A DNA stretch of 64,000 bases from Myxococcota bacterium (lineage in GTDB: Bacteria; Myxococcota; B64-G9), in the NCBI GenBank assembly GCA_022710975.1, contig JAKLGA010000007.1, positions 62,001-126,000 on the forward strand. The letters run 5' to 3'. Below, one piece after another: positions 5,429 to 38,303 of the stretch. The notes under the pieces were generated by a model. The model was given only the letters and a program-made list of their open reading frames with translations. It did not search any database and was not told the origin of the DNA. The number at the start of each line of letters is the position of its first letter. The first letter of the stretch is position 1. A program made the translations under genes and the position numbers.

Positions 5429-7288
<1,860 letters not shown>

Positions 7289-7291
7289 AGC

Positions 7292-9361
7292 TCACTTGCC
7301 CAGGTGCCGGGTGTAGAACACCGGTCCTTGCCCCGGCCGCTTGAGCTGGAACAGCAGCAGGCTGCCCGGGGCGATGTCCGCCAGGACCTGCTCGAAGCGG
7401 CCGTCGTCGGCCACCAGGATCTCCTTGCCGTTCACGCTCACGCTGGCCCCGACCGGGGCCCGGCCACGCACCTCGATCCGTCCGTCCGCGGGGCGCTCGC
7501 CCGGGCGGGGCGCGTCGATGCGCATCAGGGTGGCGGCGTTGTCGAAGACCAGCACCAGCTTGTTCATCTGGTTGGACTTCAACAACTTGCCGCTCGCGTC
7601 CAGCGCGGCCTGGTACCAGTAGTAGGTGCCCTCGCGCAGCCGGCCCGGGGCGAGCGCCAGTTTGCGCTCGGCCGTGCGCTCCTCGATCTGCGGGGTCTCC
7701 AGATCGTCCTCGGCGTAGACGCGCACGACGTAGCCGGCCGCGCCCGGGTGCTCCTCCCACTGGAAGGTGAGCCTGGGCACCTTGCCCTGGAAGAGGATGC
7801 GGGTCTGCACCCCGGTGTCGGGCACCACGTTGTTCACGCTGGCCGCCCCGCCGGCGGTGGCCACCGGATCGGGGCTGAGCTCGAGGCTGCCCACCGGCCC
7901 GGGCAGCGGCTGGGGCTTGCCCTCCTCCGGGCGCAGCACGCGGAAGAAGGAGCGGCCGGCGCGGGCGTTCTGGGCCAGGTAGCCGCGCAGCGCGGGCTCG
8001 CGGGCCCAGACCTTGGCGAAGTCCGCCTTCGGGCCGACCTCCACGGTGGCCTGGGCGCCGTCCTCGGCCCGCGCCAGGGCGAAGGCCACCCTGGGGATCC
8101 AGCGGTCGTAGAACACCTGGGTGTGGGCGCCCTCCACGGCCACGATGCGCGGCATCGGCTCTCGCACGGGCTTGCCCAGCTTGCCCGCGGTGTCCACGCT
8201 CAGGCTCTCTCCGGCCAGGAGCGAGATGGTCTCCGAGGAGGTCTTCACCTCCGCCTCGCCGGAGCGCACCTCGACCTGGGTGCCGTCGGCCTTGCGCATC
8301 ACCGTCACGTCCGCCTGGCCGCCGCGAGCCCTGGCGGTCACCGTGGCGTACGTGGTCTCCACGGCCTGGGCCGAGCCCGCCGCGCTCCCGCGCTCCAGGC
8401 GCACCCGGGCCTGGCCGGACTCGAGCTTGAGGGTGCCCTGACGCACGCCGCCCTCGCGGAAGGCGCCGCCGAACACCACCTCGGAGCCCGGGGACAGCTC
8501 GACCTTGCCGCCGGCGCCGTCCTCCAGGCTGTAGGGCTTGGCGGAGCGCACCGTGGCGCCCGGCTCCAGCGGACCGGCCGCGGCCACCAGCTTGAAGTCT
8601 GCCTCGCCCGGCAGCTTCATGCGCAGCCCGCCCTTGACGCCCTTGACCCGGGTGGGCAGGGCCTCGCGCCGCACGACCTCCCCCTCGCCCACGCGCATCT
8701 GGAAGCTCGCGCCCTCGCGCAGCGCGGTGGTCTGCCCGCCGCGCTCGAGGGTCGCGTCTCCCATCACCATGCGGATCTGGGTGCCCGAGGCGGCCGCGCT
8801 GAGCCGGGCGTTGCCGTCGCGCGCGACCACCACGCCGCTGTCGTCCCCGAACTTCAGCCTGAAGCCCGAGGAGGCGCCCTGCGCGGCCTTGACCTCCAGA
8901 TCCCCGCCCTCCACCCGGCGCACGCGGGCCTGGCCGGACTGCAGGCGCACCACCTCGCGGGCCTCGCCGAACCGGATGCGGAACCCGCCCCCCTCGGTGG
9001 AGGAGTCCACCACCACCTCGCCGGCCTGGAGCTGGAGCTCCGCCTCGCCGCCGGACCCCGCCAGGTCGAGCTGGCTGTCCGGCTGCAGGTCGAGCTGCCG
9101 CCCGTCGCGGAACTCGACCTTGGCCGTGCCGTCCGGACCGGTGCGCAGCGAGGCGGTCTCCAGGAGCGGTACGCCCACCACGGCAGGGCGCCAGACGCCC
9201 GCGTCCGTGTCGCGGACCTCGACCTGGCCCAGGCGCTTGGTCACCCGGGCCCAGGGCTGCACCACGGCCGCGTCCTGGCCGCCCGGCTCGTCCTCCCCCC
9301 CGGGGCAGCCGGCCAGCGCGGCCAGCAGCAGGCACACGCAGCTGAGACGGATCTTTTCCAT
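7292..9361 (-). CDS. FecR-domain lipoprotein
   Basis: 689 residues. The start ATG (MEKIRL) precedes a lipoprotein signal with LAGC at Cys19. Residues about 60-130 match the FecR fold (LRTGPDGTAKVEFRDG...LDLQPDSQLDL), and the same kind of segment recurs several times (GATVRSAK, SGEAEVKTSSE), suggesting multiple FecR-like blades. The C-terminal third has Fn3/Ig-like elements (VPRLTFQWEEHPGAAGYVV, GTYYWYQAALD, VSVNGKEI). It lacks the anti-sigma helices and transmembrane segment of classical FecR, so it is more likely a periplasmic or surface scaffold than a sigma regulator. It faces and nearly touches the kinase gene (convergent). Confidence 0.85.
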   Translation of the reverse strand: MEKIRLSCVCLLLAALAGCPGGEDEPGGQDAAVVQPWARVTKRLGQVEVRDTDAGVWRPAVVGVPLLETASLRTGPDGTAKVEFRDGRQLDLQPDSQLDLAGSGGEAELQLQAGEVVVDSSTEGGGFRIRFGEAREVVRLQSGQARVRRVEGGDLEVKAAQGASSGFRLKFGDDSGVVVARDGNARLSAAASGTQIRMVMGDATLERGGQTTALREGASFQMRVGEGEVVRREALPTRVKGVKGGLRMKLPGEADFKLVAAAGPLEPGATVRSAKPYSLEDGAGGKVELSPGSEVVFGGAFREGGVRQGTLKLESGQARVRLERGSAAGSAQAVETTYATVTARARGGQADVTVMRKADGTQVEVRSGEAEVKTSSETISLLAGESLSVDTAGKLGKPVREPMPRIVAVEGAHTQVFYDRWIPRVAFALARAEDGAQATVEVGPKADFAKVWAREPALRGYLAQNARAGRSFFRVLRPEEGKPQPLPGPVGSLELSPDPVATAGGAASVNNVVPDTGVQTRILFQGKVPRLTFQWEEHPGAAGYVVRVYAEDDLETPQIEERTAERKLALAPGRLREGTYYWYQAALDASGKLLKSNQMNKLVLVFDNAATLMRIDAPRPGERPADGRIEVRGRAPVGASVSVNGKEILVADDGRFEQVLADIAPGSLLLFQLKRPGQGPVFYTRHLGK

Positions 9362-32577: not shown

Positions 32578-32773
32578 CTGGTGCCGCAGGCCGGATCGAA
32601 GCACAACGGCGGGAGGTGCGCCACGACCCAGGAACCAGGACGCAGAACTGCCAGCCCCCGTCCTACGGGGACCTCGGCTCCTGATGTGCGTGCGCCAGGC
32701 CTGCGACTCCCCGATGCGCGACGGACGCTCGCCAGGCCCGCCTCGCCCGTCGCACCTCGAAGGGATCCTCAGG
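32578..32773. repeat. Direct repeats Y1 (32578-32612) and X1 (32681-32773)
   Basis: Y1 carries GGCCGGATCGAAGCACAA and matches 34410-34444. X1, from about 32681 and best conserved from GCGACTCCCCGATGCGC at 32703 to TCCTCAGG at 32773, matches 34321-34409 at roughly 80%. In the other copy X and Y are contiguous; here Y precedes X with about 70 bp between. The last codons and stop of the DUF1016 gene overlap the end of X1. A small CCCCGT/ACGGGG hairpin lies at 32656-32670. Confidence 0.7.
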
Positions 32774-33986
32774 GCGGAGTAGATCTTGATCGCTTCCTCT
32801 CGCGATGGGCGCTGCTCCGGCCAGGTTGCAGTAACCTGCGTTGCATCAGAAGCGCCCGAGTCCGCTCGATCTCCGCGGCCAGCTCCTGCTCGCCGGGCAG
32901 CGCGGTCCGGTACTCGGCGGCCAGGACCTTGCTCGGCAAGCCTTCGATCGCGTAGCGCGCCACGGCCTCGTCCTTGTGCGCGCACAGGATGATCCCCACT
33001 GGCGGGTTCTCACCCTCGCGCACCCAATGCTCGCGGGCGTAGTTGAGATAGAGGTGCATCTGGCCGGCGTCCGCGTGGGTGAACTTGCCGAGCTTCAGGT
33101 CGATGATCACCATACAACGCAGTCGGCGGTGGAAGAACACGAGATCCACGCGGTACCACTCGTCGCCCACGCGCAGGCGCCTCTGCCGACCGACGAAGCA
33201 GAAGTCGCCGCCGAGCTCCAGCAGAAACGACTCCAGGTGGTAGATCAGCGCCTCTTCGAGGTCGCTCTCCGAGTACTCGTCCTTGAGGCCCAGGAACTCG
33301 AGCACCAGAGGATCCTTGATCTCCTGCTCGGGCAGCACCCGGTCCTCCGGTTCTGCGAGCCCGCCCTTGCGCAGCATCGCTGCCTTGTCCCGGGATAGGG
33401 CGGTTCGTTCGTAGAACTGCGCGTCGATCTGGCGGGCGAGCTGGCGCACGGTCCAGCCCCCACGCAGGGCCTCGGCCTCATAGAAGCGGCGGGCATCCGG
33501 CGAACGGCTGCGCCGCACAAGGAGCACGTAGTGTGACCACGAGAGCGGAAAGACGTCGGCCAGCGCCGAGAGGCTCGACGTCGCCTTCGCCGCAGAGGAT
33601 TCTCCGGACGCCGTCTGGAGAATTCGCGGCGCAGGAAGCGGCTGGGCGGATCTTCCAGGCAGTTCTTGGAAGCAGTCGGAGTAGGCCTGATAGAAGGAAC
33701 GCATCTCGAAGAGGTTGCTCTTGCCGAACCCACGCCCGAAGCGCGCGCCGAGATCCGCAGCGAGTCGGTCGATCAGCGCCTCGCCGTAATCCGCCCGTTC
33801 TTCTCCCCGCTGCTCCTGCTCGACGATGCGACGTCCGACCATCCAGTAGGTGGCCGTCATCACCGCGTTGACGGCGCGGGTCGCTGAGCCGCGCGCCAAC
33901 TGGATTAACCCCGCGATGTCGCGCAGGGTCTCCAGGTAATCGCCCGTATCGAAAGGATCGAGGGCGGTCGGTCGACGCCTGGTCAT
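32769..33986 (-). CDS. DUF1016 (YhcG-type) PD-(D/E)XK nuclease
   Basis: 405 residues from ATG 33986; further in-frame ATGs upstream exist, but the family's N-terminal helix (YLETLRDIAGLIQLARG...AVNAVMTATYWMVGRRIVEQEQRG) begins just after this one. Then DYGEALIDRLAADL, FGRGFGKSNLFEMRSFYQAY, and the C-terminal nuclease fold with VDLVFFHRRLRCMVIIDLKLG, where Asp and the IDLK acid/Lys pair are the expected catalytic residues. Family members are linked to restriction and anti-phage loci. The flanking X/Y direct repeats suggest an acquired or duplicated segment. Confidence 0.88.
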   Translation of the reverse strand: MTRRRPTALDPFDTGDYLETLRDIAGLIQLARGSATRAVNAVMTATYWMVGRRIVEQEQRGEERADYGEALIDRLAADLGARFGRGFGKSNLFEMRSFYQAYSDCFQELPGRSAQPLPAPRILQTASGESSAAKATSSLSALADVFPLSWSHYVLLVRRSRSPDARRFYEAEALRGGWTVRQLARQIDAQFYERTALSRDKAAMLRKGGLAEPEDRVLPEQEIKDPLVLEFLGLKDEYSESDLEEALIYHLESFLLELGGDFCFVGRQRRLRVGDEWYRVDLVFFHRRLRCMVIIDLKLGKFTHADAGQMHLYLNYAREHWVREGENPPVGIILCAHKDEAVARYAIEGLPSKVLAAEYRTALPGEQELAAEIERTRALLMQRRLLQPGRSSAHRERKRSRSTPP

Positions 33987-34445
33987 TGGAACACCGGTGC
34001 GAACAAGGATCTCCTCCTTGCCAGGGCCTCCAGGGCTCCTGGCCATGCGTGTCTCCCCGAACTGGCGAACCGTGTCCAGGCCGCCGGGTGGCCAGAGCAA
34101 CTGCTGTGCCAACCGACCAAGCTCGCACGCAGGCGTCGGCCGCGGGGTCGATCTTCCGCAGAGATTCCCTGCGGCTATCCTGCTCGGCGCTCCCGCTCCA
34201 CGAGTCCCGGCGACGCGTCACCGGCCCAGGTGCTGGCCCCAACCGTGACCGATTTCCGGACACCCCACCGGCACCCCCTAACCAGCTGGGCAGCGCCCCC
34301 CGCGAGCCGCCTCAGCTCCAGATCGGCGCGTGCAGGGCCGCGACTCCCCGATGCGCCAGGTCCATGCCAGACCCGCCTCGCCCATCGCCTTCTCGAAGAG
34401 TTCCTCAGGCTGGTACGCCTGGCCGGATCGAAGCACAATGGCGGC
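33987..34445. other. 459-bp non-coding gap with repeat copy XY2
   Basis: No credible gene on either strand. The right quarter is the X2-Y2 repeat. Read on the minus strand, that repeat is open and gives a protein-like stretch (SGQAYQPEELFEKAMGEAG), so it may be a remnant of a lost gene. No transposase or terminal inverted repeats were identified. Confidence 0.5.
34321..34444. repeat. Direct repeat XY2 (contiguous X and Y)
   Basis: X2 spans 34321-34409 and Y2 34410-34444, same orientation as X1 and Y1 at 32.6 kb. Y2 ends at the start codon region of the next small gene. Confidence 0.7.
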
Positions 34446-34706: not shown

Positions 34707-34785
34707 CGGTTGCTACCCGCCAAGGCCTGGCCACAGACCCTTGAATGTCAGGGCGGTGGTCGATACTCTTTGCATGGGGAGATGC

Positions 34786-35427
34786 ATGGAACAAACGAGC
34801 AAAGGGGCGACGAGGATCCAGCCGCCAGGAGTGCGCCCGGTTGCGGGGAATGGCGGTCAAGCCCTGTTCGCATTCTTGCTGGATACGCTGAAGGGGCAGG
34901 GCGATACGGTGACCCATTCAGTTGCAACCAAAGGCCAGCACCTGCCGTTTGTTCTGGGAGTACAAACGCCCTCAGGCGAGCGGCTGGGTCTAGCCATCTA
35001 CGCATTTCCGATCTCCATGGAACCTGGTCCCCGCTTCGCCTTCCTGGCTGATCTTGGAGGCGAGCGCTGCGGAACAGAGTCGCTCTGGAAAGATCCCTAT
35101 GGAGTGATGCAAACGCATCTTGTTGGAATCGACATCGAGCAGGGCGTGATCGTGGGTGCGGATGCGGTATACAACGATCCCCTCACCTCTCCGACCCGCT
35201 TCGCGTTCAGCAACAACGAGATGGATGCCATCCGCAGTCGAGGCTGGCACGCCTGGGAACACGAGCCCGACGATGCAACGCCGGGGCTGGAACCACCGAT
35301 CGAGATCTTGGTTGGCTTCCGTGCGCAGCACCTGTTGAACTACCTGCGTTATGAGCGGGAGGCCCAGGGAGAAGATCCCGGCCACCGCCATCTGCTGGCG
35401 GAACGGTTTGCGCCAACTCAATTATAG
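34786..35427 (+). CDS. Unknown first gene of the McrBC-like operon
   Basis: 213 residues from ATG 34786 (GGGGAG upstream). One alpha/beta domain: a helix around FAFLLDTLKGQGDTVTHSV, strands LPFVLGVQTPSGERLGLAIY and RFAFLADLGG, a central LWKDPYGV, HLVGIDIEQGVIVGADAVY, FAFSNNEMDAIRSRGWHAWEHE, and a C-terminal helix ILVGFRAQHLLNYLRYERE. No enzyme motif is certain. It ends 12 nt before the McrB-like gene, so it is probably part of the system, perhaps a target-recognition or regulatory subunit. Lower GC and relaxed codon use (more CAT, GAT, TTG) than flanking genes. Confidence 0.75.
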   Translation: MEQTSKGATRIQPPGVRPVAGNGGQALFAFLLDTLKGQGDTVTHSVATKGQHLPFVLGVQTPSGERLGLAIYAFPISMEPGPRFAFLADLGGERCGTESLWKDPYGVMQTHLVGIDIEQGVIVGADAVYNDPLTSPTRFAFSNNEMDAIRSRGWHAWEHEPDDATPGLEPPIEILVGFRAQHLLNYLRYEREAQGEDPGHRHLLAERFAPTQL

Positions 35428-35439
35428 CGAGGCATTGGA

Positions 35440-36903
35440 ATGACAGCCTTCGAGGAACTGCTTCGGGGAATGGCCGCAGGTAGGTCCTGGGAGTTGATGG
35501 GCAACGCGGATACTGCACGCGACCTGATGCATCGGGTCTACGAGGAGCGCTACCACGGCGCTGCCCACTTCAAGGACCGATTTCAGCTACGCGTGAATCT
35601 CCAGAAGAAAGACGATGCGGCCTCCTACGCTGGCTGGATCACGGCAGAGAACCCGACTTCGGGCCCGTACCAGGGCACATCCTTCGTCTGGTTCCCCGGT
35701 GAGAAAGGCAGCGTAGCAGTGCTGGTCATCGGCACCGACGGGTTCGGTGCGGACACGTCCATCCTCGGGCGACCCGGCCATGGCCGCAGGCTTCGCGCGC
35801 TCTCGCGTATTCACCGGGGCAAGGTTTGGGTCAAACCAGATCTCCTGGAAATCGCCGGCGAGGTCCCCTCTCCCATCACGGAAGTCTGGCCCGAGATCCA
35901 GCCTGCGCTGAAGGCCTACTCGAGGGTCATCTATGCTGCCGTCCCCGTTCGGGGATCGAAGGACGCCGAACCAGTGCAGGACCTGCTTGACCTCTTCTTC
36001 GAGGAGCACAAGATCCCGCTGACCGGCAAGGCCAAGGATCGCTGGGCTGAGAGGAAGAACGCCATCGCAGGTGCTGTCTTCCCTCATCTCAGTGAAGTGG
36101 ATGTCCTTGCTCACCTGAAGGAGCGACGCTTCGTCGTGCTCGAGGGACCACCGGGCACGGGCAAGACCCGGCTGGCCTACCGCATTGCTGACAAGATCGG
36201 TTCGGCGACCAAGGTGCAGTTCCATGCGGCCCGAACCTATGAGGACTTCGTGGTGGGCCTCTTCCCTCGCCCCACGGTCCAAGGTCTTGCCTTCGAGGTG
36301 CGCCCCGGTGACCTGCTGGCAGCCAACCGAAAAGCACAGGGAGCGCCGCACCTCTTGGTGTTGGACGAAATCAATCGGGCCGACTTGGCGCGGGTGCTGG
36401 GCGAGGCGGTGGTTCTTTTCGAGCCAGGAGAGACCGATCGCAGCGTCAAGCTCGCCCACGCTCCCGAAGGTCAGCCGCAGGAGTTCAAGCTCTCGCCAAA
36501 CCTCATGGTCCTCGGCACTCGCAACACAGCGGATCGAACCATCGCGCGGATCGATATCGCCATTCGCCGCCGCTTCGCCTTCCTGGAAATGTGGCCCGAC
36601 TTGAGCGCGGTTTCGTCCGAGGGCGTGAAGCTGGCCGAGGACCTGTTCGCAGACGCCATCTCCACCTTCGTCGAGTATGCCGACGAGGACACCATGCGCC
36701 TGGTGCCCGGCCACGCCTATTTCCTCGACCCGCGCAAAGACTTGAGCACCGAGCAGCGCGAGGCACGGGTCGCCAGACGGATCCAGTTCGAACTCCTGCC
36801 CCTCCTCCGGGACTACCTCACCGAGAAACTCTGCGGCGGTGCCAGCGAAGCAATCGCGGGCCTGGCCGACCGGATCCAGGCGCGGCTCTTGGGGCGTGAA
36901 TGA
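35440..36903 (+). CDS. McrB-like AAA+ NTPase
   Basis: 487 residues. The N-terminal about 200 residues have no recognised DNA-reading domain (GPYQGTSFVWFPGEKG, VLVIGTDGFGADTSILGRPGHG). The motor domain has Walker A GPPGTGKT at 236-243, Walker B LLVLDEINRA with Asp309-Glu310, and the McrB-type signature RNTADRTIARID around Asn362 followed by arginine fingers (IRRRFAF). McrB proteins translocate and activate the McrC nuclease at modified DNA. It overlaps the next gene by 4 nt (ATGA). Lower GC than the genome average supports horizontal transfer. Confidence 0.9.
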   Translation: MTAFEELLRGMAAGRSWELMGNADTARDLMHRVYEERYHGAAHFKDRFQLRVNLQKKDDAASYAGWITAENPTSGPYQGTSFVWFPGEKGSVAVLVIGTDGFGADTSILGRPGHGRRLRALSRIHRGKVWVKPDLLEIAGEVPSPITEVWPEIQPALKAYSRVIYAAVPVRGSKDAEPVQDLLDLFFEEHKIPLTGKAKDRWAERKNAIAGAVFPHLSEVDVLAHLKERRFVVLEGPPGTGKTRLAYRIADKIGSATKVQFHAARTYEDFVVGLFPRPTVQGLAFEVRPGDLLAANRKAQGAPHLLVLDEINRADLARVLGEAVVLFEPGETDRSVKLAHAPEGQPQEFKLSPNLMVLGTRNTADRTIARIDIAIRRRFAFLEMWPDLSAVSSEGVKLAEDLFADAISTFVEYADEDTMRLVPGHAYFLDPRKDLSTEQREARVARRIQFELLPLLRDYLTEKLCGGASEAIAGLADRIQARLLGRE

Positions 36904-38303
36904 ACCGGGGCCGCACTCAGAAGGGGCGACTGCGCCCTGGGAACCTGGTCTCGACGGAAACCCCATCCCGCCAGCTTCTTCGCACGACCGATCATGGTGA
37001 TCCGATCATCGTTCGAGAGAAGGACCTGGGGTTGACCGGGGATCGCTGGGTCGAACCCTTCCTCGATGCGAACCGTTCAACCCTGGCCAGGCTGTCTTTG
37101 CGCCCCGAGGTGCGTGTGGATCCCAGGCCCAGCGTCCTACTGCATCCAGGTCCCAAGGTCGGTGCAATTCCGCTGCTGAATCCCTCGACCCGAAGAGTCG
37201 CGGCCGGGCTGCTGGTGGAGCCACGTTTTCGCTGGGTCGCACTCGGGTCGGTGTTCAACGCCATCGGGTTCTCGGTGGAACCCTCTCTCGGCGGTGGTGC
37301 GTTGGTCCCGGGATCCGCCAGGGAGGTCCCACCTTGGATCCTGGCGGGGCCCGTGTTGCAGCGCCTCGCGGCCCTGCTCAACCACCGCAGACGAGGTTTC
37401 ATCGAACGGAGCGAATCCCGCGCAAGTCCGCGAGGACGGGTCGACTGGACGCGCTGGGCTTCGCTCGACGTCCCTCACGGACGCTGGACGACATTTCCGT
37501 GCACCTTCTCGGATCCGGATGACGATCCAAGTCTCATGGCGGCCGTGCGCTGGACACTGGCCCGCATCGGTGATGAGCTGGCCGCGATCCCCTGGTCGCT
37601 GCCAGCGCGCACCCTTCTCGAACGCACAGCCGAGCTCCAAGTCCTTGCAGGAACTGGAGTGGCACTGCGGCCCTCACCGTTCTGGTCACCCCTCGCTGAG
37701 TCCGACTGGGTCCTGTCGGCAGTCGAGGCCATGGGCTGGGTCGCAGAGGAACGCGGGCTGGGGGGCTCCCGGACCCTGGATGGTTTGGCCTGGGATCTCT
37801 CGATCGATGAGGTCTGGGAGGCATGGGTGGCTGCATTCGCCGCGGATCTCGCGAGGCAGCTGGGCATGACCGCCAGCACGTTCAAGAGCGTCCGCCGCCC
37901 GCTGCGCTGGAGCGGCCCGGTTAGATCCATGGGCTCGCTGGCCCCGGACATCGAGCTTCGCAACCCGGAGCGGGTGATCTGGATCGACGCAAAGTACAAG
38001 GCGCACCTGGAGCTGCTTGGCAGGCATGGCTGGGAAGGTCTCAAGGAGGAGGTCCGGGAGCAGCACCGGGCCGACCTACACCAGGCTCTGGCCTACGCCT
38101 CTCTGGCCGACGCCCCGCTCGTGGACACGGTGCTCATCTATCCTCAAATCGGCGACCAGACGCAGCGCACTACCACAATTGCATCCGTCACCTCGGGCCG
38201 CCGCCGTGTGAGGATCTTCCTCGCTTCGCTGCCGTTCGGATACCGGCACCCGGAGCACCGGACCGCCTGCCTGAGTTCGTTCAGCGAACTCTACTCTGCT
38301 TAG
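36900..38303 (+). CDS. McrC-like PD-(D/E)XK nuclease subunit
   Basis: 467 residues, start ATG overlapping the McrB-like stop. The N-terminal half is a beta-rich adaptor (PEVRVDPRPSVLLHPGPKVG, LVEPRFRWVALGS); the C-terminal half is the nuclease with PDIELRN (Asp350) and WIDAKYK (Asp363, Lys365), the expected metal-binding acid and catalytic acid/Lys. The same layout is seen in McrC and LlaJI-type second subunits. Partner of the NTPase just upstream. The gene ends with a convergent hairpin repeat. Confidence 0.88.
   Translation: MNRGRTQKGRLRPGNLVSTETPSRQLLRTTDHGDPIIVREKDLGLTGDRWVEPFLDANRSTLARLSLRPEVRVDPRPSVLLHPGPKVGAIPLLNPSTRRVAAGLLVEPRFRWVALGSVFNAIGFSVEPSLGGGALVPGSAREVPPWILAGPVLQRLAALLNHRRRGFIERSESRASPRGRVDWTRWASLDVPHGRWTTFPCTFSDPDDDPSLMAAVRWTLARIGDELAAIPWSLPARTLLERTAELQVLAGTGVALRPSPFWSPLAESDWVLSAVEAMGWVAEERGLGGSRTLDGLAWDLSIDEVWEAWVAAFAADLARQLGMTASTFKSVRRPLRWSGPVRSMGSLAPDIELRNPERVIWIDAKYKAHLELLGRHGWEGLKEEVREQHRADLHQALAYASLADAPLVDTVLIYPQIGDQTQRTTTIASVTSGRRRVRIFLASLPFGYRHPEHRTACLSSFSELYSA

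Follow-up and report, generated by a model that had tools for sequence, protein, structure and literature searches.

A McrBC-like gene pair of a distinct subfamily with a diverged, probably captured MTaX1 gene in front

Within the 64-kb stretch of DNA analysed here (the window), three genes lie in tandem on one strand (Table 1), gene 1 being separated from mcrB by 12 nt and the start of mcrC overlapping the mcrB stop by 4 nt (ATGA), so that the gene coordinates, the 12-nt gap and the overlapping McrC gene given in the initial annotation are all borne out. An SD-like GGGGAG precedes the gene 1 ATG, an alternative start is offered by an in-frame ATG at 34774, and the gene 1 frame is uninterrupted, with conserved residues spanning 200 aa. 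As homologues of all three frames are present in other genomes, chance open reading frames are excluded. GC3 amounts to 0.66 in gene 1, 0.77 in mcrB and 0.76 in mcrC, against a window background of 0.97 (sd 0.013; n=30 other window genes), and this distance from the background gives good support to the foreign origin previously proposed from atypical codon use. The GC3 of gene 1 also departs from that of mcrB and mcrC (Fisher p = 0.002), suggesting that its donor may have been a different one. Elsewhere in the window (32769-34112, minus strand), a YhcG/DUF1016 PDDEXK nuclease gene, a PADLOC candidate (PDC-S02), likewise features foreign codon use (GC3 0.81); it lies between two copies of a 22-base sequence (32591 and 34423) that is unique to these sites genome-wide, and further short repeats around it differ in order between its two sides.

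Table 1. Positions of the genes, predicted domains and motifs of the locus, numbered within the window
Feature	Position	Strand	Size or remarks
Gene 1, predicted diverged stand-alone MTaX1-domain protein	34786-35427	+	213 aa
MTaX1 Pfam match in gene 1	35080-35346	+	PF20296; residues 99-187
Gene 2, McrB-like AAA+ NTPase	35440-36903	+	487 aa
McrB N-terminal domain	35440-36039	+	residues 1-200; conserved in subfamily
Walker A GPPGTGKT	36145-36168	+	McrB residues 236-243; 236-242 invariant in alignment A3
NTAD, NxxD GTPase signature	36523-36534	+	McrB residues 362-365; N362 and D365 invariant in alignment A3
Gene 3, McrC-like nuclease	36900-38303	+	467 aa
McrC PD-(D/E)xK site, D350...D363-A-K365	37947-37994	+	PD...DxK arrangement

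By sequence, genes 2 and 3 are a McrB/McrC pair of a distinct subfamily. The gene 2 product carries an AAA_5 match as well as conserved Walker A/B and NxxD motifs, is aligned by phmmer to E. coli McrB structures (6e-26), and matches the NCBIfam McrB model with an E-value of 1e-23, a score under that model's curated cutoff. The gene 3 product matches Pfam PF10117 (McrBC) at 25.3 bits, above the cutoff of 23.9, over its C-terminal part only (profile positions 216-318), the match not extending to the N-terminal part in which McrBC systems have the McrB-activating DUF2357 domain. In the putative active site, D363 and K365 are unchanged in all 9 sequences compared and D350 in 8 of them, which upholds the earlier assignment of gene 3 as a McrC-like nuclease. 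McrB and McrC are adjacent, and their identities to the window proteins rank in nearly the same order across loci, indicating that the pair is inherited together. The survey took in 195 host-phylum genomes, 297 from a second phylum, and collections of viral, phage and plasmid sequences; one scan of genome contigs, for close relatives only, extended it to other phyla. McrC relatives, some of them distant or partial, were found in 9 other host-phylum genomes and in 5 of the second phylum (Acidobacteriota MAG L001 and 4 more), and the plasmid collection returned no McrC match. A pair of the subfamily is also found on viral contig L054, where the two-gene McrBC (5854-8846) comes directly after a lysozyme-like gene. 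In two genomes of one genus, McrBC members of the subfamily (L026, 6814-8383; L030, 6063-9260) share a neighbourhood of tRNA-Pro(GGG) and an HU-like gene, a site that is a probable mobile-defence hotspot.

The N-terminal domain of McrB features a subfamily pattern, SGxYxGxSxVxxP...GT...LxRxGHxR...WxKxD, and the earlier view that these 200 residues contain no known reader holds at the level of Pfam families: none of 8 subfamily members has a Pfam match here, in a scan that recognises the E. coli McrB domain (PF12102), and no solved relative was retrieved by profile search. Profile comparison was negative for MTaX1, the domain family discussed below, and not significant with E. coli McrB-N and a DUF3578 protein, so that neither MTaX1 nor, by sequence, ADAM was retained as an identity for the domain. 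When its fold was checked, as had been suggested, a moderately confident AlphaFold model was obtained (pTM 0.79, pLDDT 75), but the Foldseek match to E. coli McrB-N (3sse), which has the highest target-normalised TM-score among the 50 PDB matches listed (0.50), is not significant (E 1.8, probability 0.16), and a small phage protein in the viral library scores 0.51. The strand/helix pattern of the model resembles that of E. coli McrB-N by eye, which we take as a lead. McrB N-terminal readers other than the E. coli-type ADAM/MrcB_N occur in the McrBC family, and we consider the domain a candidate for a reader of modified DNA, either new or strongly diverged. Found in two phyla and on a viral contig, the McrBC subfamily has at the McrB N-terminus a conserved domain to which no family is assigned.

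Gene 1 had initially been described as a component of no recognised family. This description has to be revised, as its product matches Pfam MTaX1 (PF20296) at 28.4 bits, above the cutoff of 25 (profile positions 32-111), a match that rules out a new family. With the N-terminal half of MTaX1-PD-(D/E)xK proteins it shares 35-37% identity across some 200 aa, the nearest relatives being two host-phylum proteins, L034 (37%) and L033 (35%), each aligned over about 200 aa; no close relative was found in the surveyed genomes and collections, and the plasmid and phage collections gave no match. The RPxxE...Q motif present in most other MTaX1 members compared (L037 excepted) is missing from gene 1, and its terminal branch in the tree measures 1.59, as compared with 0.17-0.65 in the four remaining rows of the group. 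The protein stops close to the point at which MTaX1 gives way to the nuclease in its fused relatives, the nuclease half being absent, and its structure model (pLDDT 46) is too poor for use. We classify gene 1 as a diverged orphan MTaX1. The domain is named from its gene neighbourhoods, and the MTaX1 half ancestral to gene 1 was probably DNA-recognising.

A DNA methyltransferase is present at all 11 other MTaX1 loci examined. The L034 and L033 genes encode proteins of ~390 aa, with an N-terminal MTaX1 and a C-terminal PD...ECK nuclease-like part, beside a C5 methyltransferase; L035 resembles them and also adjoins a C5 methyltransferase. The same architecture recurs in L048, from the phylum of L001, and in viral contig L055, and in both a Vsr gene or Vsr-like frame lies close by. 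On L055 (3430-6777) the Vsr-like frame and a C5 methyltransferase are found together with the MTaX1-nuclease gene, which seems to carry a frameshift close to its end. At L036 the MTaX1 and nuclease halves are encoded by two neighbouring genes, with a C5 methyltransferase after them. At L039 and L049 MTaX1 is a stand-alone gene that overlaps one for a PLD-SF2 helicase and lies downstream of a D12-type or N6/N4 methyltransferase. At L037 (7446-14391) MTaX1 lies within a GHKL-ATPase protein, followed by Z1, DUF4420 PD-(D/E)xK and C5 methyltransferase genes; L038 has gene sizes as in L037 and a C5 methyltransferase match that is 60% identical, and L032 has an N6/N4 methyltransferase gene upstream. 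The effectors that are fused to MTaX1 or lie directly downstream of it are thus of PD-(D/E)xK, PLD-SF2 helicase and GHKL ATPase type.

Work with several effector types, fused or placed directly downstream, is one of the observations that favour MTaX1 as an obligatory third subunit of the window system, which would recognise DNA by its sequence or modification state and deliver it to McrB/McrC, with McrBC replacing the PD-(D/E)xK or helicase-nuclease effectors that MTaX1 serves elsewhere; the tight operon and the discrimination of modified DNA proposed for MTaX1 (PMC10853773) point the same way. However, MTaX1 is not conserved with McrBC, the usual RPxxE...Q motif is lost in gene 1 and McrB retains its own conserved N-terminal domain, and we judge an obligatory role for gene 1 unlikely. 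The initial annotation described a three-gene operon whose first gene, with the McrB N-terminal domain, may define a new recognition mode or an extra effector, and had itself named non-conservation of the first gene as a finding that would count against this. MTaX1 proved absent upstream of the subfamily McrBC at all 11 other loci with readable upstream sequence: 4 kb was examined at 10 pairs (L001, L025-L029, L031, L050, L051 and L054) and the whole fetched stretch around L030, leaving out L052, where only 149 bases precede McrB. The pairing of MTaX1 with McrBC was met only at the window locus among the surveyed genomes and collections, and with no second MTaX1-McrB-McrC locus the trio is rejected as a conserved system in the sampled phyla; nor did we find a description of MTaX1 with McrBC in the searchable literature. 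In L001 the place that MTaX1 holds in the window is taken by an HNH-domain gene (6749-7981; weak Pfam match), directly upstream of a 70%-identical McrB. A usual McrB partner of this kind was considered and discarded: an HNH gene stands in front of McrB at both L001 and L028, yet the two HNH genes are unrelated.

The reported absence of an accompanying methyltransferase is confirmed, both by tblastn with C5, N6/N4 and D12 probes, which found none in the 64-kb window, and by the lack of any PF00145 match to a C5-cytosine methyltransferase genome-wide in the host, in a search whose positive controls match in 10 of 14 reference genomes. The single N6/N4 methyltransferase of the host genome lies on another contig. 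These results bear on a Type II mode of action, in which the McrBC-like subunits would cut unmethylated sites and be paired with C5 methyltransferases. There is a precedent in LlaJI, which is McrBC-like and acts as a Type II enzyme together with two 5mC methyltransferases (PMC1459862), and MTaX1 is itself methylase-associated; the lack of a methyltransferase in the window and of PF00145 in the genome nevertheless contradicts such a system for C5 enzymes, the location of the sole N6/N4 enzyme also speaks against it, and we regard it as highly improbable.

Our preferred reading, held with some reserve, is that a two-gene restriction system of McrBC type was acquired horizontally and has a captured MTaX1 gene ahead of it. 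We count in its favour the conserved McrBC motifs, the absence of MTaX1 at 11 loci and the methyltransferase at 11/11 MTaX1 loci, as well as the lost RPxxE...Q, the long branch, the deviating GC3 and the lack of a C5 methyltransferase in the genome. Against it count the intact frame of gene 1, on the same strand and 12 nt before mcrB, and the stand-alone MTaX1 genes of L036, L039 and L049, which lie directly upstream of or overlap a restriction effector gene, a layout expected of a working adaptor. On a survey of two phyla and of the viral, phage and plasmid sequences, capture with an optional or no function for gene 1 is rated above an obligatory third subunit, and McrBC probably suffices by itself, since its subfamily relatives do without gene 1. 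Gene 1 could also be what remains, without function, of a restriction-modification system that lost its methylase and nuclease half either before McrBC arrived or at that time. That it stops near the MTaX1/nuclease boundary of fused relatives, its long branch, motif loss and deviating GC3, the missing C5 methyltransferase and the lack of trio conservation are all consistent with a relic, while the uninterrupted frame with residues conserved across 200 aa and the SD-like GGGGAG ahead of its ATG count against one; we consider a relic possible but distinctly less probable than capture, noting that our confidences in the two overlap, because capture includes a vestigial gene 1.

Under the preferred reading of capture, the McrB N-terminal domain would bind the target DNA, probably modified or otherwise foreign, the AAA+ ring of McrB would hydrolyse NTP (GTP, as predicted from NxxD) and translocate, and McrC would cut the DNA through its PD...DxK site, all by analogy with E. 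coli McrBC. Gene 1 would derive from the N-terminal half of methyltransferase-linked MTaX1 restriction enzymes; instead of being an obligatory subunit, it would be either an optional DNA-discrimination add-on of the same operon or a remnant in decay. It is doubtful that MTaX1 has been recruited as a stand-alone recognition subunit of a McrBC engine; if true, the outcome would be a restriction system of three components and no methylase, in which an AAA+ translocating nuclease is steered by a module that elsewhere belongs to methylase-linked restriction enzymes. MTaX1 beside a methylase-free nuclease offers a clean setting for testing what MTaX1 reads.

Among known systems, gene 1 relates the locus to the MTaX1 (PF20296) restriction-modification systems, exceeding the family cutoff and aligning across about 200 aa, whereas the window is devoid of their nuclease half, methyltransferase and RPxxE...Q, and the partner is McrBC. 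LlaJI shares with the window McrB-like and McrC-like subunits and a unique N-terminal specificity region, but has two 5mC methyltransferases where the window has none. McrBC systems are very common and come with many specificity domains and neighbours, methyltransferases included (PMC11090510). The methyltransferase-associated McrBC branch and the CoCoNuTs described there resemble the window locus in combining McrBC with varied specificity domains and neighbours; the former differs in its methyltransferase, and the latter carry NxD where the window McrB has NxxD (NTAD). With respect to E. coli McrBC, the window system has an extra upstream MTaX1 gene, a McrB N-terminal domain not recognised as MrcB_N/ADAM, and a McrC of 467 rather than 348 aa to which PF10117 matches in the C-terminal part only, but it has in common with it the gene order, the overlapping genes, an AAA+ module with NxxD and the PD...DxK nuclease of McrC.
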